In this document: in pieces, positions 4,417 to 20,796 of the stretch | Layout of the letters: each line of letters starts with the position of its first letter | How positions within the stretch are numbered: position 1 is the first letter of the stretch | From: a virus | Strand: one strand, 5' to 3' | DNA length: 20,796 nt | Virus record (IMG/VR): IMGVR_UViG_3300021509_000014 | Location: 1-20,796 of that record | Translations under genes and position numbers: made by a program | The notes under the pieces: generated by a model | What the model saw: the letters and a program-made list of their open reading frames with translations, nothing else | Told to the model about the DNA's origin: nothing | Databases searched by the model: none

Positions 4417-6030
4417 TTAAACCTCCTCTATGACTCGCTTTGGCGTAAGCGACTCTATGGACGTGTCTACAATCAAACCCATGGTAGTGATCAACTCAAC
4501 TACTCCAGTTAAGGTCGTACTATCTATTCCTGCGGAAACCGATCTCAGTACTGTAAGTAACATATCTGCGGCAACAACGTCAGAGGTAATATCTACAGCA
4601 AGTGTCTTTAGAATCGCGAGAGCTGCCTGAGCAACCTGAGCAGTAGTTACAATCTCTACTTGCCCAATTTTAACGATTACTAACTCGGCACTGTCCGACG
4701 TCGAAACAGTAACCTGAATAGCAGAAGTAATAGAGCGAATTAGCTCAAGTACTACAACATGTGAAGCGGTGCGGACTTGAACCTCAGTTGAAATCGGTCT
4801 TAATACCAAAAGCTTCGCATTACTGGTAAGGACTTGTGAAGCAATGTTAGCGACCGCCTCAACGAGTGCAACAATAGAAAGTTCAGCAGAATCAGAAGAG
4901 GAAGTCTTAACCTCGATCAGTGTTGACAATTCGCGTAGTACATTCGAACTAACCTTACTAGAAGTAGTACTTAGAGAGCTAAAAGAAGCCGATGAGTACC
5001 TAAACACACTAAACAGTGTAGTCGAAGTGAGAGACGTCGACAGTATATCAGCTACAGCAGTAAGTACTTCACCTCCGCTCACATACTCGTCTGCTCCAAT
5101 GTCCCAAGGAGCAGAGCGAGTTTCACCGTCTATATCGTCAGTAAAACCTTCTGATGAAAGGTCTACGCCCGCATCCCTTAAGTCAGTGTCGGTAGACTTT
5201 AAGTGAAAATCCCCATTAGGGTAGTCGACGAAAACTAATGACCAATCGCTAGGAACTACCGCATTTGTTCCGTCTCCGTCGTCTGAAGCACAGTGATCAA
5301 TCGTAGATACATTACTGAAGTCGTCTGAATTTCCAAAAACTGCACAATTCTGGACAATGACATCGGGACTTCCGCTTTGATTAAAAATCCCTATACCAAA
5401 GTTGTAAACCGTGCAGTTGAAAATTTCGACAGTATCATTTGAAGCCGCTCCTATACGAATCCCAGCTTCTCCCGTAGAGCTACCATCTTGATAGATTACA
5501 CAATTCCGAATTTTAAATGCTGTTGTAGTGTCGTTGGGATCGTAAATGTTTATTCCATAACCTTTCGTTGATTTAGCCGTTAACCGGATGATTGATTTAT
5601 CTATGACTACGTCACCGGACGTACACCACTCTAGAAGCAAGGGGTAGCGAGCATAAACATGGCCACTTTGCACCTTGTGTGTCGCGTGTATTTGCAGCCC
5701 TATAATGTAAACCCAGCCCTGCCGTACATAGAGACCGTTATTTGTGCCTGGATCAAGTCGGTAACTACTATCGTTCCACTTCCCATCGTGCCTGTAGCCT
5801 TCATCCGGGTCAGTCCATACTTTAATGTAGCAATCACTGTTAGTAGTCCAACCTTCAATAGTTACGGTTGTCGCGTCAGCAGAACCGTTTGTACATCGAC
5901 ATTTAGCAACTGCTATCTCGTCAGCGGCAACGAGATCTCTCTGTTCGCCCGCTTCCCAAGCAGCTAAACTGGTGTAGTCTGTACCAGGACCGTTATCAGG
6001 ATCTACTATTTTTACGACTTCAGTAGCCAT
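4417..6030 (-). CDS. Parallel beta-helix fibre protein with C-terminal ~22-residue repeat array
   Basis: 537 residues. The N-terminus (about 1-60) includes DYTSLAAWEAGEQRDLV, a segment I know from other phage and bacterial beta-helix proteins. About 85-300 has right-handed parallel beta-helix rungs such as FKIRNCVIYQDGSS, VEIFNCTVYNFGIGIFN and VIVQNCAVFGNSDDF, closing with the typical DIDGETRSAPWDIGADEY at about 300-316. From about 320 to the end is a separate array of roughly 22-residue repeats of the form VLRxIS-xxI-xVxT-xSDxAEL, about nine copies of varying quality, rich in Ser, Thr, Val and Ala. The first part fits a tailspike- or fibre-like role; the array may be a stalk or oligomerisation region. 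Stop and start of the upstream gene are joined as TAAGATG with no good ribosome site, so it probably depends on coupling. Confidence 0.8.
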   Translation of the reverse strand: MATEVVKIVDPDNGPGTDYTSLAAWEAGEQRDLVAADEIAVAKCRCTNGSADATTVTIEGWTTNSDCYIKVWTDPDEGYRHDGKWNDSSYRLDPGTNNGLYVRQGWVYIIGLQIHATHKVQSGHVYARYPLLLEWCTSGDVVIDKSIIRLTAKSTKGYGINIYDPNDTTTAFKIRNCVIYQDGSSTGEAGIRIGAASNDTVEIFNCTVYNFGIGIFNQSGSPDVIVQNCAVFGNSDDFSNVSTIDHCASDDGDGTNAVVPSDWSLVFVDYPNGDFHLKSTDTDLRDAGVDLSSEGFTDDIDGETRSAPWDIGADEYVSGGEVLTAVADILSTSLTSTTLFSVFRYSSASFSSLSTTSSKVSSNVLRELSTLIEVKTSSSDSAELSIVALVEAVANIASQVLTSNAKLLVLRPISTEVQVRTASHVVVLELIRSITSAIQVTVSTSDSAELVIVKIGQVEIVTTAQVAQAALAILKTLAVDITSDVVAADMLLTVLRSVSAGIDSTTLTGVVELITTMGLIVDTSIESLTPKRVIEEV

Positions 6031-8322: not shown

Positions 8323-10662
8323 TTAGCGTAGTACTGTTAATTCAACAGTATCTGCTTCGCATACACTGTTTCTTGGCGTAATTTTAATCGTGAAGTTCTT
8401 ACTAAGCACGCCGTCTGAAGATTGCAGCGTGGATGTGTAGTCATACGACGTAGTTGTACCATCTAATACTTCTTCCCTCACTTGGGTAGCGCCGTCATAG
8501 ATCTCCAACCGAATCTGGTCATAATCGGGAGTAGGATCATGCGGTTTTTGCTGACTTGGAAAATGAAATCCTGCGCCATCTCTGGACTGATTTCTCCAAC
8601 TAATGCTGACATCATCGCCTGAAGAAACGTGATGATTATTACCTTGTCCATTAACCTGGAGATTACAAATTGGTAGTGGCCTAAAAGGGTTGCCCTTATA
8701 CGTGAAGGAGTCTGTTTCCGCGTGCTCTGTATCATCGATTTCCGCCCCAAGGAAGTGATGTCGAGGGACCATATCGACATCAAGAACCTGGTTGGCAAAA
8801 GGGGCGAACGTACTCCTATCTGTAGTGACAGGGGCATTGTAATTTAAGTAAAACACGTCCGTCCCAGCGGAATGTGAAGCAATAGCTGTCTTGAAGAATC
8901 CTCTAATTACTCCTACAAAATGGTACCCACTATCGTCTACACTCACATCCCTAACCGAAATTATCTCGTTATTGATCAACAATAACAAAGAACCGGCGAA
9001 CCAACCAGCATCGCTAGATCCAAGCAACGAAAAAGCGACGTCACTTGTAACGTCGATTTGATAAGTTCGAGAAGACTTATGAGTAATAGAGACATCGTGA
9101 GTTAGCGTTCCTAGATAGTTAACCAAAATCTCCGTCGTAACGAGATTTAAAGAATCGTAACTCAAAGTAACTGAACAACCTTTTAAGTAAGGGTTACTTA
9201 GATCAGGTTTACACCAGAAGTAAACGCCTCCGATCGGATTTTCAAGATAACCCCAAGAAATCCAACTACTCTCGAAGTCTTGAGTAACCACCCCCGGACC
9301 GACAGAAGGAATGTCTGACATGTCAACGGGTTCTGCCTCAACAAGCTCTATAGCCTCAATCTCATAAATACCTACTCCCTTTCGAACAATCGACGTAACT
9401 CGGAATGTGCCTGTTACTCCAAACTGGTCGGAGTCAATCTCTATGATCTGGTAAGGCTCAATAGATGCAGTAGTTGTAAAGGTAGCTTTAATACGAGGAA
9501 ACGTGACTTCGGTCATCTTACGATCAAGAACTTTCTTCGCAATAGTATCAGAAGCAATGACTCTATAACTAAACTCGTTCAGTTTAAAATTACCTGCGAC
9601 TGCTTCGGTGCCGTGGTCGATCTGATAAATCCAATTCGTCTCATAATCATTGTGAGGATCAATCCACTCTAACGAAGCTGCACAATGAACTGCGGTCCAA
9701 AGATTCCCTTCGAGTGACAGATTGTCAATGTCATCGTCGGTCAGAGTTAGTGTAGCAGACCCCGTATTTCTAATTACCTTAACGTGAATTTTGTTTTGAT
9801 ACCAATAAAGTTTAGCACCACACCAATCTAAGATCTCTCTTATTACCTGCCCAAGATCGGCCGAAGTTGAAACTACATATGACCCTCCAATTCCCTCCGA
9901 CGCAAGGGTATTTCCTGCCGCTATAAACGAATCTTTGTCAACTAAGCTCTCTGGAATGTTCAAATACCAACGATCTGTTAGAATGTAGTAAAGGACTTGC
10001 ATCAGATTAGCGTCATCTCCAACTTTCTTTCCAAGCGAAGTCAAGGGTTGAACGAACCTTTTCAACTCACACTGTGGGTGAATAGGGGATGGAGATTGTC
10101 CTAAACAAATGTTTAGTGTAGCATACGCCACGTTACGATAGTTTAACAAGTTGGAGCTGTCATGAAGGGCGGTGTCGTGAGAATGCCGAGTCTGTGTAGA
10201 CGTGCCATAGTACCAGTGACCTCCGAGGTACTTACCTCGTTCGCCCCGATCACACCCCGAAGAAGGGTGATCTATATCCACTCGAGTGGTTTCAAGAATC
10301 AACTTTGTAAACTCATCAACTGGACCTATAGAAAAGGCCCAGCGGGCAACCATCATGTAGGTGTAATAAGTAATTTCTGTCTTAGCCTTACCAGAACCAA
10401 CCTCTTTCTTATGTTCAATCTCTTGAAATGACCGCTTGAAACGGCCGTATGCCTCTACCTTAGGGACCATATCAATCATAACACCAGCGACCTGGCCCCT
10501 TCCAAAAACAGAGGGAATCGCAAGCCCAACCCTGTTGCGAGGAATCTTTACCTCATTAGCACTTTGGTCACCCGGGCTGTCCTCAGTCTTAGGTGGTCCC
10601 GCCAAAAAGTAGCTCGCGAGAAACAGTACCGCGTAAATTGCTAGAGTTGCAAAGACTGCCAT
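8323..10662 (-). CDS. Phage tail-tip hub protein (gpJ / GTA gp15-like)
   Basis: 779 residues, the central tail-tip protein that anchors fibres and contacts the cell. A hydrophobic N-terminus (1-22) is followed by IPSVFGRGQVAGVMI (49-63), a typical hub opening. Around 149-196 come WYYGTSTQT, YRNVAYATLNICLG and ELKRF, again typical of this family. About 214-400 has the Phage-tail_3-like block: GDDANLMQVLYYILTDRW, then SADLGQVIREILDWCGAKLYWYQNKI. The rest is beta-rich, with Ig/Fn3-like strands near the C-terminus. Position after the DUF2163 and NlpC/P60-like genes matches GTA and related tails. The first 22 bases overlap the preceding gene; a GGGGAGG lies 17 bases before the ATG, so coupling likely matters more than its own site. 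Confidence 0.9.
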   Translation of the reverse strand: MAVFATLAIYAVLFLASYFLAGPPKTEDSPGDQSANEVKIPRNRVGLAIPSVFGRGQVAGVMIDMVPKVEAYGRFKRSFQEIEHKKEVGSGKAKTEITYYTYMMVARWAFSIGPVDEFTKLILETTRVDIDHPSSGCDRGERGKYLGGHWYYGTSTQTRHSHDTALHDSSNLLNYRNVAYATLNICLGQSPSPIHPQCELKRFVQPLTSLGKKVGDDANLMQVLYYILTDRWYLNIPESLVDKDSFIAAGNTLASEGIGGSYVVSTSADLGQVIREILDWCGAKLYWYQNKIHVKVIRNTGSATLTLTDDDIDNLSLEGNLWTAVHCAASLEWIDPHNDYETNWIYQIDHGTEAVAGNFKLNEFSYRVIASDTIAKKVLDRKMTEVTFPRIKATFTTTASIEPYQIIEIDSDQFGVTGTFRVTSIVRKGVGIYEIEAIELVEAEPVDMSDIPSVGPGVVTQDFESSWISWGYLENPIGGVYFWCKPDLSNPYLKGCSVTLSYDSLNLVTTEILVNYLGTLTHDVSITHKSSRTYQIDVTSDVAFSLLGSSDAGWFAGSLLLLINNEIISVRDVSVDDSGYHFVGVIRGFFKTAIASHSAGTDVFYLNYNAPVTTDRSTFAPFANQVLDVDMVPRHHFLGAEIDDTEHAETDSFTYKGNPFRPLPICNLQVNGQGNNHHVSSGDDVSISWRNQSRDGAGFHFPSQQKPHDPTPDYDQIRLEIYDGATQVREEVLDGTTTSYDYTSTLQSSDGVLSKNFTIKITPRNSVCEADTVELTVLR

Positions 10663-11105
10663 TCCCTAAACGAAAATCCTCCCCACGTAATTGCAAAGTC
10701 AAATTTAAACACAGGTGTGATAGTAACACACTCCTTCGGGAAAGATGTAATAAACTGACCTCCTACAAACAAAGCACTTTCAACATCAAAATTTCTTCCT
10801 ATAATTCTTAATACCCAATCTCCACACTTCAAATCCGCCGGATCAGTCGTCTCAACAAGGCGTCCACCACTTTCTTCCTGAATAAACGCTTTGAATTTGT
10901 GTACGCCCTCTTTCCTAAGAATCCTAAGCGCCGATGTAGTATGGATCACTCTAAACTGATCTTCCGAAATCAAACCACTCTCTTGTACTATGCGTAATGA
11001 GACTCCAAAGCAATCAATTCCCTTAAGAGAAGTACCTCCGAGCTTAAAAGGAGTATTAACCCACTTCTGTGCTAATTGATAATAATAACAATTCTCACAC
11101 TTCAC
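10641..11105 (-). CDS. NlpC/P60-like tail protein, copy 2 (catalytic His not found)
   Basis: 154 residues from the GTG at 11103-11105 (VKCENCYYYQLAQKW). An ATG 15 codons further upstream is open, but it overlaps the previous gene by 56 bases and the paralogue starts near its own CxxC, so the GTG is preferred; AGGTG lies five bases before it. The fold pattern WVNTPFKLGG, LKGIDCFG and KCGDWVL matches NlpC/P60 peptidases, Cys32 being the expected nucleophile. The segment that normally carries the histidine (HxxIYVG) reads DVESALFVGGQFITS, with no His. An N-terminal Cys-x-x-Cys is shared with copy 1. In GTA-like tails this place is taken by a wall peptidase that opens peptidoglycan during entry; here the activity is doubtful. 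Confidence 0.75.
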   Translation of the reverse strand: MKCENCYYYQLAQKWVNTPFKLGGTSLKGIDCFGVSLRIVQESGLISEDQFRVIHTTSALRILRKEGVHKFKAFIQEESGGRLVETTDPADLKCGDWVLRIIGRNFDVESALFVGGQFITSFPKECVTITPVFKFDFAITWGGFSFREWQSLQL

Positions 11106-11556
11106 AAGGACACCTAAAATTGACTTTAGAAATTTTGTAGTCAAATTCAAAATCAGCAGCCCACTGAACTCCAGTTACAGGCCTGGCAACAAGAAACTTA
11201 TCGGACACGTAAACCGCGGCGAACATTTCTCTATAGCGTCCGATGTCTCGTACCACAATATCCCCACACTTTACACTTTTATCTCCAATTACCACCACGT
11301 AATCGTCACCAAAAGCATGTGCCAGCTGCCGTAAGAACTCTTGATGGTCTTGGCGAAATAATTTAAGCATTCGTGCGTTGTAAATATCCAGAAACGTTTC
11401 CCTAGAAAGAAGACCTACATCTACCAAGATTGAAAAAGGCGCACTCACACAATCGGCACCCCTACCCTTAACACAATCCCTAAGCTTGAACGGAGTACCA
11501 ATCCATTCGCTAGCTTTCTTAAAAAATACACAGTTACTACACTTACTTCTTTCCAC
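11095..11556 (-). CDS. NlpC/P60-like tail protein, copy 1 (catalytic His not found)
   Basis: 153 residues with a GTG start, overlapping the DUF2163 gene by 14 bases and the next copy by 11. It begins MERSKCSNCVFFKKASEWIGTPFKL, followed by GRGADC (31-36) and KCGDIVVRDIG (96-106), the NlpC/P60 layout with Cys36 as expected nucleophile. Where a histidine should precede the AAVYV strand the sequence reads REMFAAVYVSDKFLV, so the usual Cys-His pair is incomplete. The protein ends CPCEV. It is clearly paralogous to the following gene; the order DUF2163, NlpC/P60, hub is that of GTA tails. It may be a structural tail-tip plug that no longer cuts, or the histidine may be supplied elsewhere. Start choice rests on alignment of the CxxC with copy 2, since the ribosome site is poor. 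Confidence 0.75.
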   Translation of the reverse strand: MERSKCSNCVFFKKASEWIGTPFKLRDCVKGRGADCVSAPFSILVDVGLLSRETFLDIYNARMLKLFRQDHQEFLRQLAHAFGDDYVVVIGDKSVKCGDIVVRDIGRYREMFAAVYVSDKFLVARPVTGVQWAADFEFDYKISKVNFRCPCEV

Positions 11557-12343
11557 CTGTCGCAGTCTTTCCCTGTCTTCCCCTTAAAGTTGAACTTTCT
11601 GTGGGAGTATGAGGAAAACCTAAGTAGTTATCCAAATTGTTAAACTTGTCTCTACAAGTTGCAATCGACTTATCACAGCCAGCGTAAACAGTAACGACAT
11701 CTCCTACAGACAAATCACGAGTAGCAAACCTCACTACTACAGAACCCGCATCATTAGAAACTATGCTCCTAACTTCCGTCGGCGCAACTAACTTCCCGTA
11801 CTTCAGAAAATTATTTGGAACGGGATCTGGGAAGTTTGAACCTCGAGTAGTATAGTCAATTGAAATAGTCCGCCCACTGATTCCAGCTACTATCCCAGAA
11901 GCAGAATAAGAATCCCAAGCAACCCCACACTCATCCAATGTTCGAATGCACCCTAAAGAAAGGCGCATGCGATTCGCCGACCTAAGTCCCAATGACACCA
12001 TGCTCTCAACTTCGAGTTCGACGAAGTGAAGGTCGATTTTAAACTTAGTAACATTACCTTGATAAAACTCTGACCACGTTGCTGTGTCCGTATCAATTTC
12101 AACGGCGTGTACTGTTACAGGCCCAACTCGATTTACAAGGTAACTTGAGAGATTGGGTACCTTATCCCGTAAAATCTTAATAGTAAACGCTTCTTTCCGA
12201 TCTACACCAGAAAGTTCGTATGAAATATCAGACGTGATAAGAGGTTCCCAAGTAATAGAGTCATTAGTCGTAAACGGGAAGTTGGTCGCAATCAAATAGT
12301 CTGTGTGCGTGCCATAAACGAGAATTACGCCGTCAAACTTCAA
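11543..12343 (-). CDS. DUF2163 / BR0599-type phage tail protein (GTA gp13-like)
   Basis: 266 residues. About 20-130 fits the DUF2163 part: DSITWEPLITSDISYELSGV early, SEFYQGNVTKFKID in the middle. Then CIRTLDECGVAWDSYS (about 132-147) leads to the BR0599-type C-terminal block with GCDKSIATCRDKFNN, NYLGFPHTPT near 228-250. This cysteine-bearing ending is highly diagnostic. In GTAs the homologue is a tail-tip hub component with bound metal or disulphide-type cysteine contacts, beneath the central hub protein. The start is a TTG with AAGGAGG six bases upstream, overlapping the glycosyltransferase-like gene by 11 bases. Its 3' end overlaps the first NlpC/P60-like gene by 14 bases. Family assignment is firm; details of its assembly role are by analogy. 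Confidence 0.9.
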   Translation of the reverse strand: MKFDGVILVYGTHTDYLIATNFPFTTNDSITWEPLITSDISYELSGVDRKEAFTIKILRDKVPNLSSYLVNRVGPVTVHAVEIDTDTATWSEFYQGNVTKFKIDLHFVELEVESMVSLGLRSANRMRLSLGCIRTLDECGVAWDSYSASGIVAGISGRTISIDYTTRGSNFPDPVPNNFLKYGKLVAPTEVRSIVSNDAGSVVVRFATRDLSVGDVVTVYAGCDKSIATCRDKFNNLDNYLGFPHTPTESSTLRGRQGKTATGGKK

Positions 12344-13202
12344 CGAGAACCTCCTTCAAATAGGACTCTATCTCCTCAAAAAATACCTCAGGATTGAAAT
12401 CTTGGCACTTCAAACCAAAAGGACACACAAAATTGTCAGGAACTCCCGGCCAAGGACGTCGACATGGATACAAATCACAACGGTTAGGTGACTGAACTGA
12501 AATGTGTAAAGGATAGGACAACTGTTTCGGGTCCGTAGACGTAAAGATAAAGAAACCTTTCTTTCCCAGTGCAGCTCCAGCGTGGCAAAGCCAACTATCT
12601 ACACCCACTAGAGCATCCGCTTCTGACACGAGAGAAATGGAAAACCTTAAGTTCAAGTCAGGATGCTCAAACCCAGGTAAAGAGGGTTGAGACAAGCCAC
12701 GTAATACGAGTACAGTACCAAAATTGCTCAAGAACCGGGCTACCTCTAATGCTTGTTCTCTACTCAAAGAACGTTGACCTGAAGAGAAAGGGTCGGATAC
12801 GTTAGTAGAGGCTCCAAAAGGTTGGAACAAGATAACAGGGCGCCCTTTCCGATCAAGATAAGCTCGTGCATCCTCCTTCTCTTTATCAGTTAAGTAAAGC
12901 TTCGGAGTAGCACCTTGTACAAGTTCAACATCGCAAGCCCTAAATATTGCTTCAATGAGGGTGATTTCTCCGCGACGGTAATCCGCAACGTAGTAAGGTT
13001 CAACTTTCCTTATGTCAAACTCACTTAGTACCCTAAAGTTGGAAGAAGGCCACGGTACACATTCCTTTACACAGGGGTTGTTCTCAAAGGCAACCGGAAA
13101 TGAACATAAAACGGTTGGTTTGGGGTCAAGATAAGGGAGAACCGCAGTGAAAGCAATATTTTTCCCTAACCCGCCAGTAAACTCGAACGCTATCTTAGTC
13201 AT
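12333..13202 (-). CDS. Glycosyltransferase family 9-like protein in the tail operon
   Basis: 289 residues with a GT-B, heptosyltransferase-like layout. It has an N-terminal glycine loop GGLGKNIAFTA (10-20); a start of the second domain PVILFQPFGAS (122-132) with RSLSREQALEVARFL; then SEADALVGVDSWLCHAGAALGKK (193-215), where Asp202 and His207 match the family's donor-site D-S-x-x-x-H-A motif, and TSTDP (221-225). Four C-terminal cysteines (242, 247, 260, 266) match the cysteine cluster seen in many GT9-like proteins. No signal peptide is seen. It overlaps the giant tail gene by 8 bases and DUF2163 by 11, so it is fully part of the tail operon. GGGAGG six bases upstream lies inside the giant gene's last codons. 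It may modify virion or host glycans, or act as a sugar-binding part; donor and acceptor are unknown. Confidence 0.8.
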   Translation of the reverse strand: MTKIAFEFTGGLGKNIAFTAVLPYLDPKPTVLCSFPVAFENNPCVKECVPWPSSNFRVLSEFDIRKVEPYYVADYRRGEITLIEAIFRACDVELVQGATPKLYLTDKEKEDARAYLDRKGRPVILFQPFGASTNVSDPFSSGQRSLSREQALEVARFLSNFGTVLVLRGLSQPSLPGFEHPDLNLRFSISLVSEADALVGVDSWLCHAGAALGKKGFFIFTSTDPKQLSYPLHISVQSPNRCDLYPCRRPWPGVPDNFVCPFGLKCQDFNPEVFFEEIESYLKEVLVEV

Positions 13203-16200
13203 TTGCTTCCTCCCAAGTAACGGTTACAAAACAGCCGTCACCTTTGAAGTCAAACTCAATAGTATCCTCTGTTAAGTAAGCGTCAATCTTAAAGTGGAGC
13301 GGGGTACCCTTCGGTGTATCTAACGACAAATTATCTTGAAGGGTAACCACACAATGATCTTCGGCAGTAACCACACCCGTAACGGTCGTGTGAACTATAG
13401 TAGACCCGTAATCAATCACCACTTTCTTGTAAGCACTCCAGATCTCAGAGTAAGTTCGAGGTATGATTTTTAACGAAGCAGAGCCTTGATAGGCATCTTC
13501 GTAAACTTGTAACTCACTAAGCCAGGTGATTATGTTGACCTTCTGATATCGCCCTTTCGCATACAAGAACAAGTCCTTAAAATCTCTCCAAGCAGTCCCA
13601 AAGAACTGGTAACTATGTGTTACAACAATCTTATCGCGTAAGCGAGAACTCAAGGGATTTTTAATGGAAGGGATACCAACTTCAAGACCTTTGACATCTC
13701 TGCTGTCAACTACGGATCCTTCAACAAGTACCGTCTTCGGTCGGGTGTACCATTGCGAGGTAGTACCTGTTAACGCGTTACAGTCTTTTGGAATTATCTC
13801 ATCTACATCAATCTCAAGATTGTAAACGTTGTGTTTCACTAGAGAACGCGTCCGTCGTACGTGACCGTATCCTGTAAAGCTAGGATACACCCAAGTATCG
13901 TCCACATTATAATCGTACTGAAGCTGCCCTGCAAACTTGAGCGTTTTCGAGGCCGCATCAATTTCGGTAATCTGACCCGCTTCTAGATGACGTGAACTGC
14001 ACAAAACTGCAGAATATCCTACCTCAAAGTCTGTAACATCTTCCACGACTATTTGGGTGTCGTGTTGATGAGCATTGCTCGCTAATCGTACCCTAAGAGG
14101 AAACTCGGGTACTACTACTAAATAACGAGCCGCATTGATTGCGTCATAATCGAGATCATACGCAACCTCATCAACAGCCCCTAAATGCAACGAAGACGAG
14201 CGAACAGGATAATAAAGCTTAGGAATGCGTACGGGCTTACTTGCCAAGTTGTGAACTAGTTCTGTTTCAAACTTGAACTTTATCTTCTGAAAAGTATGAG
14301 GTGTGTTCCATTGATCATACTTCCTTGGTTTCAAGAGTACTATAGCGAACGTAGCAGAAACATAACAGATAGCATCTCCTACCGTATCGAAGTGGAAGTA
14401 AATAGGCGCATCTACTACTCTCACAGCCCCAACTTGTGCTACATTCACAAGACCTTCCATTTCAGCGCCGGGCGCCATCGTACAAGGAAGAGGTTCAGGA
14501 AGAGTTACCGAAAATGTAGGATCTGAAGAAGAAACAGATTGCAAATCATGAGAGGTATCTTCGTATCGATGTAAGATGTGGATCAACCTAGACGAGCCTA
14601 CCTTAGTAAACCCAAAATCAATTTTCGTGGGAATTACGTAAACTCTGTTCCAGAAGAAATTCTTCGGTTTGTCCTCAATCGTTTTACCTGCATAAGATGA
14701 AGGAGTTTGTGAATACGGTGTACCTACTATTACGCCCCAGTAGTACCGTTGAGGGGAGAAAAATGTGTCGTAACGACGATCCTTCGAAATACGCGAATAG
14801 TTAATACCCTCCTGTCCTTTAGATACAGGTTCGCCGCACGCATAAGGCCACCACCACCAAGGACGTTCACGCGTAGAAGGAGGAACGAACCGATAATCAC
14901 CTTCAGGACCATCCCAATGTTGAATCATGTGGGGGGTTACGAGCTGATAAGATCGAATTTGGTTGGCTATTAAGGTCAGCGCATCGGCAAATACCTTGTT
15001 CTTAACTTTAGTAAGATCACCTCTCCAAATTCTAAGGAACACACGAAAAGTGGAAGTAAGGTAATGTTTAGAATTGTAAGCAATCTCGTAAAGGCGATTT
15101 CGGATGTAAGAAATAGCTTGATGCCAGACAAGGCCGACGAGCTGCTCTTCACTCCCTGCAGTAGAGAAAGACGGCTCAGGTGAGATGTATTTTCTAACTA
15201 GAACCTTCCCTGGGTAACTCGTCGTTGTGTAGCCGTAGTTGTTGTACAGGTCTGAAATTTCGTCCTGGTTTAGAGCCTTATTGTAAATACGGACTTCGTC
15301 GATGATGCCGTTGAAATACTCATCACCACCGGGGTGATTGAGTCCTATCGAGAACCACCGATCATCACTGAGAGGAAGAGTTGAAATTGACCAAGTGGCA
15401 GAGTTATCAAGCACCCCATCAACATAAATCTCGGCGTCTCCATGATCAAACACACCGATAACGTGATACCAAATTCCTGTATTTAAGGTAGATTGCGTAA
15501 ATAGCTGTTGCCAGTCATCAGGCCAGTTGCTCGTGAAAGCAAATCTATTAGGTGAGTTGCGAGTAGAAAGAGCATAAGTCTCCTTAGATTCACCATAAGT
15601 AACTATACCACCAACTTGTACAAAATCATTGACTTTCACTCGCGCTTCGATAGTAAGTGTGTCAGTAATATCCAAACTTTCATCATTCCCACAATTCACG
15701 TAATCGTTGCTCCCGTCAAAACTCAAAGCCTTACCAAACTTTCCATCGACCCAAGTAGGACCATTAACTAAAGTTCCGTCATTACCATTTCCAGAGGTAT
15801 CATGAGCAGTAGTCCCAGAACCTTCATCGAGATGCCAACTTCCTGCAACTCCATCTATTACCCTAATAAAAGTATCCACAGCATCACTTACGTTAACTGC
15901 TTCAGAATTTCCGTAGTAACAGTAAATATTTACAGCTGAATCTAAATTATCATTTATCTTAACCCAACAATAAGCCACTCTAGTAGGTGCTGTTCCTACT
16001 ACTTTCTCGACCCAGAAATCTAAAAAGGTAGTACCATCATCGTCCACGAAACGAAGGTCCCCTGAATCATTGGTTCCTGAAGGAAACCTGGCAGAGTGTC
16101 CTTCAACATGGAAATTGTAGTCACTGGCTCCAGCGCTTTCTCCTACTTTTAAAAGGACCTGATAACCTGTCCCTGCGCCAGGGGAACCGGAGATGGTAAT

Positions 16201-19200
16201 TTTCTTCCTGTAACTCCACGACGCTAAATTCTCACAAACAGTTACCAAGTCATTGAACAAAGAATAATAAGTTGCCTTGATCCAAGCGTCGGAACGAGCT
16301 ACGTTAGAAATTCTGACTTCGTCTATCAAACCGTCTGCAAAAGAGGTAGGTGTGGCTTGAGGAGAACATGCAATTACAACAGTAGAAAGAGACTGCGGCG
16401 ACCACGTACCTCCTGTAGCCGCTGTTACGTTAGCGTCATTTATAAAAACAGCAGCATTGGACGTCGTAATAGAATCTCCAGAGGAACCTGAAAACTTACC
16501 GGCTACATACTGACAAACGTCCCAAGTAAAATCACCGGAATCCGAATCGCAGTAATTACCTTGCGTGTCCGCAAGGCGTACCCTACCGCTCGAGTTTACC
16601 CACAATGTATATTGCAGACGCCCTTCAAGAAAAGCTTGACTCCCGCCTGTAGAAGATACCTTCACGACTGACTCTATCGTAAGAGGGCCAGTAATATTCA
16701 AACTGCTATCATTCCCACAATCCACATAGTCGTCACTTCCATCGAAATCCAAAGCTTTCCCAGCTTGGCCATCAACTAAATCATCTGAAGTCATACCTCC
16801 TTGAGGAGTACCATTGTTATTGTTGCTGGTACTATCCTTGATACAACCTGATCCACCGGTTGGATCCTGTGACAAATGCCAGACACCTGCGAAACTACTA
16901 TCCCAAACATGCGCAGCAACAGAATCTCCAGGGTCTCCGACATAATCAGTATTGTCAGGCGCGCCGCTATCATAACGTAAGTAGATTATAGTATCGGAAG
17001 ATGAAGAAATGACCCATCCTGACTTAGAAACATGAAGGACAGCTTTCTTGTTAAGAGCGTCCCATTGCTCCACTTCCACATACAAGGGAGTAACACCGTC
17101 GTCTTCTGTCACGGCAATTTTCTTATAGTTGGGCCCGATTTCCGTAAAAACATCATTTGCATTCTCAGAGGTTAAAAAGAGTGTAACAGGAAAGTGTGTA
17201 AGATCCTCATCAATTCTAGTATGATCAATAGCAAACTTTATGTACTTAAGATACCAATATTCAAGGTCCGACAGTGTTATAGCCGAATCTAAAAGACCAT
17301 ACCGCGAAGCCTGTATCCACGCTTGGGAACGCGCTGTCTTCGAAATTCGGACTAACGCAATCTCCCCTGTCCACTCATCACTACTTGAAGTATCATACTT
17401 ACGACCTATTACGTGCCCAACCGAAGATAAGTCTGCATCTCCGCAAGAAGAATTACTCGCAGTAGTATCCGCAGACCCGTCGATAAACAACCTTCCCGTC
17501 GTTCCTTCTAAAACCCCAACTAGATGATGATATGATCCATCACCAATTGTGGTAGTAGAAATTGGCTGTATATCATCACCCCCGTCATCTTGCTTCCATA
17601 ATCTAAGGTAATTAGAGCTGTCCTTCCGGAAATGAACCAAAGGGGTTGTACCCTCGTGTCTAGCCGCATATATCACATTCCAGTCTGAATCCGACGTTTT
17701 TGCCAGAGCCTCAATAGTAAAATCACCAGTTCCAAGCCTGTCTAGGTAGTTACCGTCGTTACTAACACTAATGTAGTCATCCGTGCCATCAAAACTCTGG
17801 CCGCCTGCAAAGGAAGTGACAACCTCTTGCGGCTCGTTTGAACCCCTCTTCGAGAGAATTTTTCGTTCCCTTGTAAGAATGACTTCGTCTCGTAAGTATG
17901 ACGTTTTCTCTTTGAAACTGTGAATGTCTACTAGATCCTCAACCCTGTATATTTTATGATCATGATAAGTACCAAAATAAAAGTAGTCTCCATCCCAAGC
18001 CAATCCTTCACTTTCATCTGTCACCCCAGTCCTGTACTCCACAGCATCTATACTCCCATCATCCCTGAGCACTAACTCAAAGATGGAAGCCTGGGAATCA
18101 TGATCTGCTAAGAACAAAAGTCTCCCATTAACATAATCCAGCCCTTGCGGAACTCCCAAACCGCTATGGGACCACACGTCCCCTAGTGTGTAAGTTCCAT
18201 CTGAATTAAGCGTAACCTCCCTAATCTTAAAAGGATAAGGAGAGGAAGTGTCAGACGTGAAAACGTAAACTACATCACCGCTCTTGTGAGCTACCAGACC
18301 TCCTTCACCATAATCAACCGACGATAAATCCCACTCCTGGAGTTTAACACCTTGCTTTGAGATCTCCCATATTTCATAAGGCTCAGAACCACCACTGCAA
18401 AAAAGGAGTGTACCATTCTTCTCGTGAATATCACCTCCTGCACAATGAGGGGGCCCGTCGAAGGACGCAACATCAGTACCATCATACTTGAATTTGTAAA
18501 TAGTTCCATTCACACCTGCGCCGTTATTTCGCCCCCAGTAAAAATGGGCACCGTCTGCAGCAAGTCCCTGGTTCCCATAATTAGAGGACTTAGTCAAGAA
18601 CTCGCGTAAGTCAAAACAGTCAACCATTCCCGTAGCGAGTAAGAAATCATTATCCCACACACCTGAAGCAGCATACTGCCCGGCGCGGCCTACATATCCT
18701 GTGGCCCTCTCCGCGGAGGTAATCACAAAGTTGTCAAAATAACCACTTACAGAAGGGCGAGAGCCTCCACAACTATGCTCCAAGCTCACAAGAACTGAGT
18801 CACTGTACATTTGTAGACTACCCAAACTTACCCAATCACCGGTTGTCTTGTAATAGAAATAAACAACATCTCCTTCACGAACTAAACGTAGTGTAAAATC
18901 AGTATCCGTTACATTATCCCAGTCCAGAGTGGTAGAGGAGCCTTTGTTGTATCTCGATCTAATAAACTGCTGCCCTATTACCGAATCATACCCTCTTCCA
19001 ACATAGCACCAGTGGTTTCCACGATCTAAGAAATGTAGAACCAAACACATTACCCACCAATTTGTGGATGGAGCACTATCAACATGACAAGTAACTTGGA
19101 TGTCAAAATTGCCCCAGAGCATTGACTTAAGAGCAACCCACTCCCACCGCGTCGAACTGTCAACTGAGACGGAAAGATGGTTGCTCTGAATAGTTGGAGA

Positions 19201-20682
19201 GCCCCTATCAACACGCCACTTCATTAAGTCTGGAGCGTCACCGTCCGTACCAGTAAAATCATCACTCAATTGAGTGGGGTCCGGATGCCAATCTTGATCA
19301 TCAATGTCAGGATCGTAGTAAAGATAAAGCACAGTGTCGGAGGTAGACGATATATTCGGAACGCCCACCACTAACCAAGCATCCTTATTCTCAGCATCCC
19401 ACTTCTCTACATTCACATACAGACGAGTTACGCCATCCTCCAATGTCACAGCGATCTTCTTTTTATGTTCGCCTAATTTATCAAAAATATCAGAAACGTC
19501 GAAATTACTAAGACCGCATGAAGATGACAAGTGCACAGGGAGAGGAAACCATTCCATGTCTGATGCAAACTTCGTATGATCAATTCTCAACTTAACTCTG
19601 TATTTAAACCCAGTTAACCAGCTCGACTCGGAAACTCTTTGCACCAAGTCATTGAACAAAGAATAATAAGTTGCCTTAATCCAAGCGTCGGAACGAACTG
19701 TATTCGAGATCCTAACTTCATCAATTAGACCTGGCCATTCATCAGTTCCAGGAACAAGTACACCTATAACCAGATCATTAGTAGACCCGGACATGGAATC
19801 ATAGTTATCTACACTAAGAGTCTCTTTTACACCGTCAACGAACAAATCTCCGCTAAGAGTAGAGGAGTCATACGTTCCAGCAACGTAGTAGTCAACTCCA
19901 GCAGACCACGAATCCTTCGTGCTTTGAATATTCCCACCATGACTTCCTAGCGACAGCTTCCCGTCGGTGTTTATTACCAAATTGTAGGTGTCTTGACCTG
20001 AAGTAGGAACATGCTGTCTACTGACAATCCCCTTCGTATAGGAAAGACTCGAATCTAGTGTAATTGAGGGTCTTATGACGGCCTCAATCGTAAGAGTATC
20101 AGTAATATCAAGAACACTGTTGTTACCGCAATTTACGTAGTCGTCACTTCCATCAAAATCTAGAGCTTTCCCTACTTTTCCTTCAACCAGATCACCGGAG
20201 GTCATAGAACCCTGTGGGGTTCCATGGTTGCTATTAGATGTACTATCCTTGATACAACCCGATCCACCAGTCGGATCCTGTGACAAATGCCAGACACCTG
20301 CGAAATTACTATCCCAAACATTTGCAGCAACAGAATCTCCGGGATCTCCGACATAAGTTGTATTGTCTGCAGCGGATGCGTCATAGTAGAGATAAAAATA
20401 AGTATCGGCCGAGGATGAAATAGTCCAAGACGATCTAGAGATGTGAAGAACTGCTCGTTTGTTCGCTGAGTCCCATGCTTCAACTTCTACATAAAGTTGA
20501 GTGGTGCCATCGTCAGAAGTAGCCGCGATCTTTTTATAGTTAGAACCTAATTCATTAAAGACTGCATCAGCATTATCTTCAGTCAAGAAGAGGGTAACCG
20601 GAAAGTGAGTAAGATCAGAGTCAATCTTCGTATGATCAATCTTGAACCTGATTCTGTGTGAATATCCCGAGAGCCAGCCCAT
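13195..20682 (-). CDS. Giant tail protein: LamG/DUF2341 array and beta-propeller fused to a distal-tail-type C-terminus
   Basis: 2495 residues, over a third of the window. Modules by approximate residue: DUF2341-like 8-115 and LamG 160-345; DUF2341-like 355-460; concanavalin-like 476-655 (DDFTGTDGDAPDLMKW); six-bladed-propeller-like 688-913 with recurring GLAADGAHFYWG, GLDYVNGRLLFLAD and GLAWDGDYFYFGTY; LamG 954-1130; DUF2341-like 1145-1260 and LamG 1300-1480; DUF2341 1486-1600 and LamG 1625-1835 (GKALSFDGSNDYVNCGN). About 1850-2495 is a different, phage-type tail protein with an Ig-like domain (IDFGFTKVGSSRLIHI) and an ending GRYQKVNIITWLSELQV, TEDTIEFDF. It stands where GTAs have their distal tail protein (gp12). 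LamG domains bind sugars or proteins, so the N-terminus probably contacts the host. The ATG follows the upstream stop directly (TAAATG), with GGAG nine bases before. No signal peptide. Confidence 0.85.
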   Translation of the reverse strand: MGWLSGYSHRIRFKIDHTKIDSDLTHFPVTLFLTEDNADAVFNELGSNYKKIAATSDDGTTQLYVEVEAWDSANKRAVLHISRSSWTISSSADTYFYLYYDASAADNTTYVGDPGDSVAANVWDSNFAGVWHLSQDPTGGSGCIKDSTSNSNHGTPQGSMTSGDLVEGKVGKALDFDGSDDYVNCGNNSVLDITDTLTIEAVIRPSITLDSSLSYTKGIVSRQHVPTSGQDTYNLVINTDGKLSLGSHGGNIQSTKDSWSAGVDYYVAGTYDSSTLSGDLFVDGVKETLSVDNYDSMSGSTNDLVIGVLVPGTDEWPGLIDEVRISNTVRSDAWIKATYYSLFNDLVQRVSESSWLTGFKYRVKLRIDHTKFASDMEWFPLPVHLSSSCGLSNFDVSDIFDKLGEHKKKIAVTLEDGVTRLYVNVEKWDAENKDAWLVVGVPNISSTSDTVLYLYYDPDIDDQDWHPDPTQLSDDFTGTDGDAPDLMKWRVDRGSPTIQSNHLSVSVDSSTRWEWVALKSMLWGNFDIQVTCHVDSAPSTNWWVMCLVLHFLDRGNHWCYVGRGYDSVIGQQFIRSRYNKGSSTTLDWDNVTDTDFTLRLVREGDVVYFYYKTTGDWVSLGSLQMYSDSVLVSLEHSCGGSRPSVSGYFDNFVITSAERATGYVGRAGQYAASGVWDNDFLLATGMVDCFDLREFLTKSSNYGNQGLAADGAHFYWGRNNGAGVNGTIYKFKYDGTDVASFDGPPHCAGGDIHEKNGTLLFCSGGSEPYEIWEISKQGVKLQEWDLSSVDYGEGGLVAHKSGDVVYVFTSDTSSPYPFKIREVTLNSDGTYTLGDVWSHSGLGVPQGLDYVNGRLLFLADHDSQASIFELVLRDDGSIDAVEYRTGVTDESEGLAWDGDYFYFGTYHDHKIYRVEDLVDIHSFKEKTSYLRDEVILTRERKILSKRGSNEPQEVVTSFAGGQSFDGTDDYISVSNDGNYLDRLGTGDFTIEALAKTSDSDWNVIYAARHEGTTPLVHFRKDSSNYLRLWKQDDGGDDIQPISTTTIGDGSYHHLVGVLEGTTGRLFIDGSADTTASNSSCGDADLSSVGHVIGRKYDTSSSDEWTGEIALVRISKTARSQAWIQASRYGLLDSAITLSDLEYWYLKYIKFAIDHTRIDEDLTHFPVTLFLTSENANDVFTEIGPNYKKIAVTEDDGVTPLYVEVEQWDALNKKAVLHVSKSGWVISSSSDTIIYLRYDSGAPDNTDYVGDPGDSVAAHVWDSSFAGVWHLSQDPTGGSGCIKDSTSNNNNGTPQGGMTSDDLVDGQAGKALDFDGSDDYVDCGNDSSLNITGPLTIESVVKVSSTGGSQAFLEGRLQYTLWVNSSGRVRLADTQGNYCDSDSGDFTWDVCQYVAGKFSGSSGDSITTSNAAVFINDANVTAATGGTWSPQSLSTVVIACSPQATPTSFADGLIDEVRISNVARSDAWIKATYYSLFNDLVTVCENLASWSYRKKITISGSPGAGTGYQVLLKVGESAGASDYNFHVEGHSARFPSGTNDSGDLRFVDDDGTTFLDFWVEKVVGTAPTRVAYCWVKINDNLDSAVNIYCYYGNSEAVNVSDAVDTFIRVIDGVAGSWHLDEGSGTTAHDTSGNGNDGTLVNGPTWVDGKFGKALSFDGSNDYVNCGNDESLDITDTLTIEARVKVNDFVQVGGIVTYGESKETYALSTRNSPNRFAFTSNWPDDWQQLFTQSTLNTGIWYHVIGVFDHGDAEIYVDGVLDNSATWSISTLPLSDDRWFSIGLNHPGGDEYFNGIIDEVRIYNKALNQDEISDLYNNYGYTTTSYPGKVLVRKYISPEPSFSTAGSEEQLVGLVWHQAISYIRNRLYEIAYNSKHYLTSTFRVFLRIWRGDLTKVKNKVFADALTLIANQIRSYQLVTPHMIQHWDGPEGDYRFVPPSTRERPWWWWPYACGEPVSKGQEGINYSRISKDRRYDTFFSPQRYYWGVIVGTPYSQTPSSYAGKTIEDKPKNFFWNRVYVIPTKIDFGFTKVGSSRLIHILHRYEDTSHDLQSVSSSDPTFSVTLPEPLPCTMAPGAEMEGLVNVAQVGAVRVVDAPIYFHFDTVGDAICYVSATFAIVLLKPRKYDQWNTPHTFQKIKFKFETELVHNLASKPVRIPKLYYPVRSSSLHLGAVDEVAYDLDYDAINAARYLVVVPEFPLRVRLASNAHQHDTQIVVEDVTDFEVGYSAVLCSSRHLEAGQITEIDAASKTLKFAGQLQYDYNVDDTWVYPSFTGYGHVRRTRSLVKHNVYNLEIDVDEIIPKDCNALTGTTSQWYTRPKTVLVEGSVVDSRDVKGLEVGIPSIKNPLSSRLRDKIVVTHSYQFFGTAWRDFKDLFLYAKGRYQKVNIITWLSELQVYEDAYQGSASLKIIPRTYSEIWSAYKKVVIDYGSTIVHTTVTGVVTAEDHCVVTLQDNLSLDTPKGTPLHFKIDAYLTEDTIEFDFKGDGCFVTVTWEEAND
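13209..13214 (-). promoter_or_regulatory. Ribosome binding site for the glycosyltransferase-like gene, inside the giant gene
   Basis: GGGAGG on the minus strand, six bases before the ATG at 13202, falls within the codons for Trp-Glu-Glu near the end of the giant tail gene, so the two genes are translationally linked. Confidence 0.75.
16244..16297 (-). repeat. Long repeat inside the giant gene, end of LamG module (copy 2)
   Basis: 54 bases that differ from 19643-19696 at one position. They encode the junction after a LamG domain (RSDAWIKATYYSLFNDLV), a copy marker of recent module duplication. Confidence 0.85.
16830..16945 (-). repeat. Long repeat inside the giant gene, DUF2341/LamG junction (copy 2)
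   Basis: 116 bases matching 20241-20356 with 8 mismatches by my count (about 93 percent). They encode VGDPGDSVAA, FAGVWHLSQDPTGGSG and CIKDST. Confidence 0.85.
19643..19696 (-). repeat. Long repeat inside the giant gene, end of LamG module (copy 1)
   Basis: 54 bases that differ from 16244-16297 at one position; same reading frame and same peptide. Confidence 0.85.
20241..20356 (-). repeat. Long repeat inside the giant gene, DUF2341/LamG junction (copy 1)
   Basis: 116 bases paired with 16830-16945 (8 mismatches). The offset is 3411 bases here and 3399 for the other repeat pair, so the modules as a whole are duplicated, with small in-frame length changes between the two pairs. Confidence 0.85.
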
Positions 20683-20796
20683 TTACTTTCTCTCCCTCAA
20701 GTACAGATTATTAACCAGGTATGGGGGTAACTGCGTAATTTTCCTCGTAATATTAAGCATATATAACAATAAAAGGGACTTCATTCGTGAAGCACG
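20683..20796 (-). CDS. 3' end of an upstream gene (partial, unidentified)
   Basis: One minus-strand frame is open from the window edge to a TAA that abuts the ATG of the giant gene (TAAATG); the other two frames hit stops early. The 37 codons read to ITQLPPYLVNNLYLRERK at the C-terminus. A tape-measure or tail-assembly gene would be expected here from tail gene order, but the fragment carries no motif. A 33-residue complete peptide from an internal ATG is possible but lacks a ribosome site. Confidence 0.5.
   Translation of the reverse strand, partial: RASRMKSLLLLYMLNITRKITQLPPYLVNNLYLRERK

Follow-up and report, generated by a model that had tools for sequence, protein, structure and literature searches.

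The window analysed here is the whole of a 20,796-base virus record fragment from IMG/VR, and the closest relatives of this uncultivated siphophage are sequences from hydrothermal vents. The ORF list gives a reading frame of 2,495 aa on its minus strand, uninterrupted by a stop codon, in which the start ATG is directly preceded by an in-frame TAA and served by a good ribosome-binding site with a strong Shine-Dalgarno match, GAGGGAGAG. The product joins an N-terminal array of adhesin-type modules to a C-terminal distal tail protein (Dit), the core of which is not interrupted by the array (Table 1).

Table 1. The fusion gene, the parts of its product and the neighbouring genes in the window. L002 is the sibling phage and L101 the virus with the array behind Dit (see text).
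Feature	Residues	Positions	Strand	Basis or remark
Adhesin array and distal tail protein fusion gene	1-2495	13195..20682	-	2,495 aa; ORF list, TAA ahead of ATG, strong Shine-Dalgarno
3' end of gene upstream of Dit		20753..20796	-	last residues match L002:6916-7869 (317 aa in L002)
DUF2341-type unit A	1-112	20347..20682	-	identity 69% with L101 unit, 92% with L002, 68% with unit C
LamG 1	125-348	19639..20310	-	Pfam Laminin_G_3; 50% identity with LamG 3
DUF2341-type unit B	350-458	19309..19635	-	43-47% identity with A and C
Possible ConA-like unit	465-664	18691..19290	-	position and composition
Possible beta-propeller	676-932	17887..18657	-	five ~45-residue repeats, weak
LamG 2	940-1132	17287..17865	-	Pfam Laminin_G_3; 30% identity with LamG 1
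DUF2341-type unit C	1136-1240	16963..17277	-	68% identity with A
LamG 3	1255-1482	16237..16920	-	Pfam; 89% identity with L002 LamG
DUF2341 unit D	1484-1600	15883..16233	-	Pfam DUF2341; identity 82% with L002, 75% with L101
LamG 4	1606-1822	15217..15867	-	Pfam Laminin_G_3, best stretch 1656-1810
Fusion junction motif region, VLVRKYISPEPSF	1826-1838	15169..15207	-	also at L002 junction and near array end of stand-alone 727 aa protein
Linker with predicted helices	1839-2008	14659..15168	-	AlphaFold2 pLDDT mostly <50
Dit domain II, Ig/PapD-like	2012-2114	14341..14649	-	AlphaFold2 pLDDT ~70-90, structure matches
Dit core, two beta-sandwich domains with insertions	2131-2495	13198..14292	-	phrog_1082; 8rk3, 8vjh
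Glycosyltransferase-9-like gene between Dit and next tail gene		12333..13202	-	Pfam Glyco_transf_9 E 1.7e-6; kept in L002
BR0599-type tail gene (upper baseplate protein position)		11543..12343	-	Pfam Phage_BR0599 E 9.7e-19, phrog_778
Baseplate hub / central tail protein		8323..10662	-	phrog_1101 E 5e-63, Phage-tail_3

The first-pass annotation had described the N-terminal ~1840 residues as adhesin-type domains, and both this assignment and the boundary to the tail protein, found near residue 1838, agree with our profile searches and internal comparisons. Four significant stretches matched Pfam Laminin_G_3 (E 2.3e-69; 232.8 bits against a cut-off of 27.6) and two matched DUF2341 (E 3.2e-19; 69.6 bits against a cut-off of 23.4), while the remaining DUF2341-type units were detected by internal similarity, A being 68% identical to C and 43% to B. 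The array thus holds four LamG and four DUF2341-type units, together with a possible ConA-like unit and a possible propeller, which come after DUF2341 unit B and ahead of LamG 2. The putative propeller (~676-932) consists of five weak repeats of ~45 residues, and its best score was equalled in 1 of 40 shuffles; neither a Pfam family nor a PDB sequence match was found for it, and the ConA-like unit gave no Pfam match and no confident PDB sequence match. LamG units are ConA-like lectin folds.

Such an arrangement could also be read as a decoration or an enzyme, for instance a hydrolase propeller set between lectin units and removing polysaccharide, which would leave the choice of host to fibres and hub. 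The possible propeller itself, the separate fibre genes of the sibling phage and a weak beta-helix match in a downstream protein (4417-6030) are compatible with this; however, no enzyme family of Pfam is matched anywhere in residues 1-1838, and the sibling lacks the propeller and keeps its lectin-like units. We consider a decorative or enzymatic role unlikely and, from the LamG fold and by analogy with evolved Dits, a function as adhesin probable.

For the C-terminal part, the earlier designation as a distal tail protein was borne out by profile, gene order and fold, whereas the GTA type proposed with it was not: DUF2460 is absent from the C-terminus in Pfam searches up to E 1, and the GTA-type assignment was rejected. 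A sub-threshold DUF2460 hit was seen in a distant relative, L181. The family phrog_1082 ('tail assembly protein') was missed in the PHROG scan of the full-length protein and was matched by the last 651 residues alone (E 1.7e-21, over residues 143-644); among named phages, a tblastn search with the C-terminus had no match. A profile of six homologues from named siphophages hit two solved proteins, 8rk3 of the JBD30 baseplate (E 2e-101) and 8vjh of phage Chi, annotated as distal tail protein (E 5.8e-49), and the same two were matched after the C-termini of the window and the sibling had been added. Direct alignment of these C-termini with the six homologues by hhalign gave E 1.3e-4 over 445 columns at a probability of only 54%, so that sequence alone is not the deciding evidence for Dit identity.

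A structural match to solved distal tail proteins, which had been named as the test for this part, was found with both JBD30 and Chi. The AlphaFold2 model of the C-terminus, built from 42 aligned sequences, is good for model residues 185-671 (pLDDT mostly 70-95 after 185). Foldseek matched it to 8rk3 (E 2e-27) and 8vjh (E 5e-21), and VIA-align 2 placed the same two structures at Z 27-28, as compared with 12.9 for the next match. JBD30 gp49 (8rk3; PMC11445458) shares with the window protein the Ig-like domain II and a pair of sandwich domains, and its gene, too, is preceded by two fibre genes and followed by that of the upper baseplate protein; it differs in having 567 aa without an adhesin array, and a domain I of ~73 residues in place of ~1,840 plus linker. 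The Chi Dit has the C-terminal fold in common over 374 residues (Z 28.2) but, at 562 aa, is much too short for such an array. Taking fold, profile and gene order together, we have hardly any doubt that the C-terminal ~650 aa are a Dit of the JBD30/Chi double-sandwich type.

With regard to gene order, all six named-siphophage homologues lie after the tape measure gene (TMP) and directly 5' of a BR0599 gene. Two genes of ~270-510 aa stand between tape measure and Dit in five of them; in Elanor a single, shorter Dit gene follows the tape measure gene immediately. The Dit of the window is likewise directly upstream of the BR0599-type gene except for one inserted glycosyltransferase gene. The same arrangement, running from TMP through two fibre genes, Dit and BR0599 to the hub gene, is seen in Chi-like phages if the glycosyltransferase and one additional gene are disregarded. 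What follows TMP in the sibling is a set of genes related to a family matching the JBD30 fibre proteins. The Glycosyltransferase-9-like gene, part of the tail operon, shares a few bases with each of its neighbours, Dit and BR0599, and is absent from that place in L020 and in Chi-like phages; either the adhesin or the receptor on the host might be modified by its product. The 317-aa gene before Dit in the sibling carries a short Dit-like stretch (phrog_1082 E 3.6e-7), as if copied.

The sibling phage, L002, provides the closest comparison. Its Dit is 95% identical to that of the window and carries the same kind of fusion, shorter at 1,330 aa. There, a LamG matching window LamG 3 (89%) comes after unit A (92%), the intervening units are missing, and another ConA-like stretch takes the place of LamG 4; there is no propeller, only lectin-like units. 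This difference between the two arrays is best explained by recombination between DUF2341 repeats. Since the window is a 20,796-base fragment from a virus collection, an assembly error joining two unrelated genes has to be weighed, as the first-pass annotation had already pointed out. The sibling fusion, however, is found on four IMG/VR contigs with two metagenome ids, a contig of MAG AUK014 (L176), the name of which probably refers to the Auka vent field, carries it as well and is 100% identical to the sibling over 16.8 kb, and the genes flanking it are conserved on both sides. Unless all of these contigs share one error, an artefact can be rejected as extremely improbable, and, as judged from the contigs compared, the joining of array and Dit is real. 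The sibling locus occurs twice, at mirror positions and in opposite orientation (L002 and L006), on a contig of 150,430 bases (IMGVR_UViG_3300016457_000282); this head-to-head-like doubling is probably an amplification or an assembly artefact.

The same modules were found in two further settings. In L101, a Thr-rich linker leads from the Dit (phrog_1082 E 2.5e-60) to a DUF2341-LamG pair and a D-type DUF2341 at which the contig ends, so that the array is C-terminal to Dit, at the opposite end from that in the window. The modules of L101 are 58-75% identical to those of the window and its Dit only 24%, which indicates that the modules have moved independently of Dit. In L210 and L227 the array is a free protein of 727 aa (L227:7989-10172), 54% identical to sibling residues 1-689 and, in unit A, 91% identical to the window; near its end stands the motif VRKYISSEPSFS, the counterpart of which at the fusion junction is VRKYISPEPSFS. 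Relatives with separate genes, as foreseen by the first-pass annotation, therefore exist in the form of this free array, and the assembly error that was linked to them was not borne out. L210 (IMGVR_UViG_3300014913_000809) has four close-set DUF2341/LamG genes, forming a row of adhesin genes, and a RecA-like gene. Several structural-looking proteins encoded by L101 (2-421, 437-706, 1982-2548 and 6558-9344) have long Thr/Ser runs, either C-terminal or forming the linker ahead of the adhesin units.

That each part occurs alone in other viruses, and that the junction, modelled with low confidence, may be flexible, raises the possibility that the two do not work joined, and that protein cleavage or an internal translation restart yields a Dit of the usual kind and a separate adhesin. 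Within the fusion gene, however, no start codon from which a separate Dit could be made has a good ribosome-binding site, on which ground an internal start was rejected; the joined frame is kept in the sibling despite its differing array, and a Dit with the array on its other end exists in L101. We regard separate products as quite improbable and take the protein to act as one chain.

Conservation in the Dit alignment is nowhere high enough for scanning a collection, and Dits were therefore located by way of the adjacent gene, BR0599. In this sample, biased by its collection route, 59 of 67 distinct complete Dits have 375-610 aa and 8 are longer; by LamG profile, LamG units occur among all Dits found, in the same biased sample, only in the window, the sibling and L101. 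Two Dits of ~1,240 aa, L178:4175-7888 (Aquamicrobium) and L181:3792-7538 (Roseibium), have an insertion of ~840 aa in mid-Dit, without a Pfam match. Three others (L040:6301-8814, L050:6642-9608 and L056:987-3965) show a B_lectin match below the Pfam cut-off N-terminal to the Dit core and a tail of 330-490 aa behind it.

The occurrence of the same modules at the N-terminus of Dit, at its C-terminus or in a gene of their own suggests that exchangeable host-binding arms dock on the tail tip. In a wider form of this idea, a single adhesin cassette would move among viruses, docking on Dit by either end or staying a free gene, and the JBD30-type Dit would be a general socket for exchangeable long arms whose length is tuned by repeat recombination over a fixed base; we see this generalization as evenly balanced.

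For the window protein itself, we hypothesize that it is a siphophage Dit with an N-terminal adhesin array, a variant of the 'evolved Dit' that displays three arms at the upper baseplate for reversible contact with host glycans, and we consider this reading likely. The C-terminal ~490 residues, with the modelled JBD30/Chi-type fold of an Ig-like domain II and two tail-tube-like sandwiches, would, by homology, cap the tail tube and join it to the baseplate. In JBD30 the Dit forms a trimer, in which the N-terminal domain I is wrapped around the tail fibres and domain II is directed away from the tail axis (PMC11445458). By analogy at ~15% identity, the window Dit may be trimeric too, and three arms are thus expected instead of a six-fold collar. 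The ~1,840 residues, presumably gained through fusion with a mobile module cassette, would leave Dit where domain I lies in JBD30, close to the fibres, in a region (1839-2008) that is poorly modelled; from this exit, three arms of that length would project from the upper baseplate. We somewhat favour this position; in which direction the arms point is conjectural. Keeping in mind that LamG units have lectin folds and that evolved Dits aid adsorption elsewhere, a first, reversible and multivalent contact with host glycans is the best guess for the arms, the content of which would be altered by repeat recombination over a nearly constant Dit base.

Evolved Dits of lactococcal, streptococcal and Bacillus phages carry carbohydrate-binding inserts that aid adsorption (PMC10688798, PMC9863714). 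As in these, carbohydrate-binding-type modules lie in the same chain as Dit in the window (four Laminin_G_3 stretches); in contrast to them, the modules are not inside the Dit core. The inserts described, ~1-3 CBMs, sit inside a classical Dit reviewed as hexameric (PMC10688798, PMC9863714), whereas in the window a JBD30-type Dit is extended at its N-terminus by four LamG and four DUF2341-type units, an array far larger than any in those papers. Our literature search found no description of a large N-terminal adhesin array on a JBD30/Chi-type Dit; among titles and abstracts on DUF2341 and viruses there was apparently nothing on tail proteins, and no paper came up on LamG in connection with tail fiber, phage and ConA-like lectin. 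What was known already are evolved Dits with internal inserts; what is new here is the N-terminal placement, the much larger array and the JBD30/Chi-type Dit. The concept, drawn mainly from phages of Gram-positive bacteria, is hereby extended to this type of Dit and to a vent-sediment lineage. Moreover, a near-identical Dit with differing arms, and the same modules in three settings, amount to a natural experiment on the change of host recognition by module swapping.

A comparable solution is found in Methanoculleus virus L4768, in which gp33 (NC_074642) likewise has N-terminal DUF2341 and LamG on a siphovirus tail-tip protein; there, the carrier is a Sipho_Gp37-like protein instead of Dit, with a single module pair. 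Elsewhere in the window, two pairs of adjacent minus-strand genes resemble each other. The ~150-170 aa paralogues at 10641-11150 and 11095-11556 have, by eye, an N-terminal CxxC and an NlpC-like 'W.GTPFKL...DC' motif, with no family above the Pfam cut-off. The products of 43-1455 and 1480-1920 have, also by eye, similar C-terminal ~120 residues, resembling a duplicated fibre tip.
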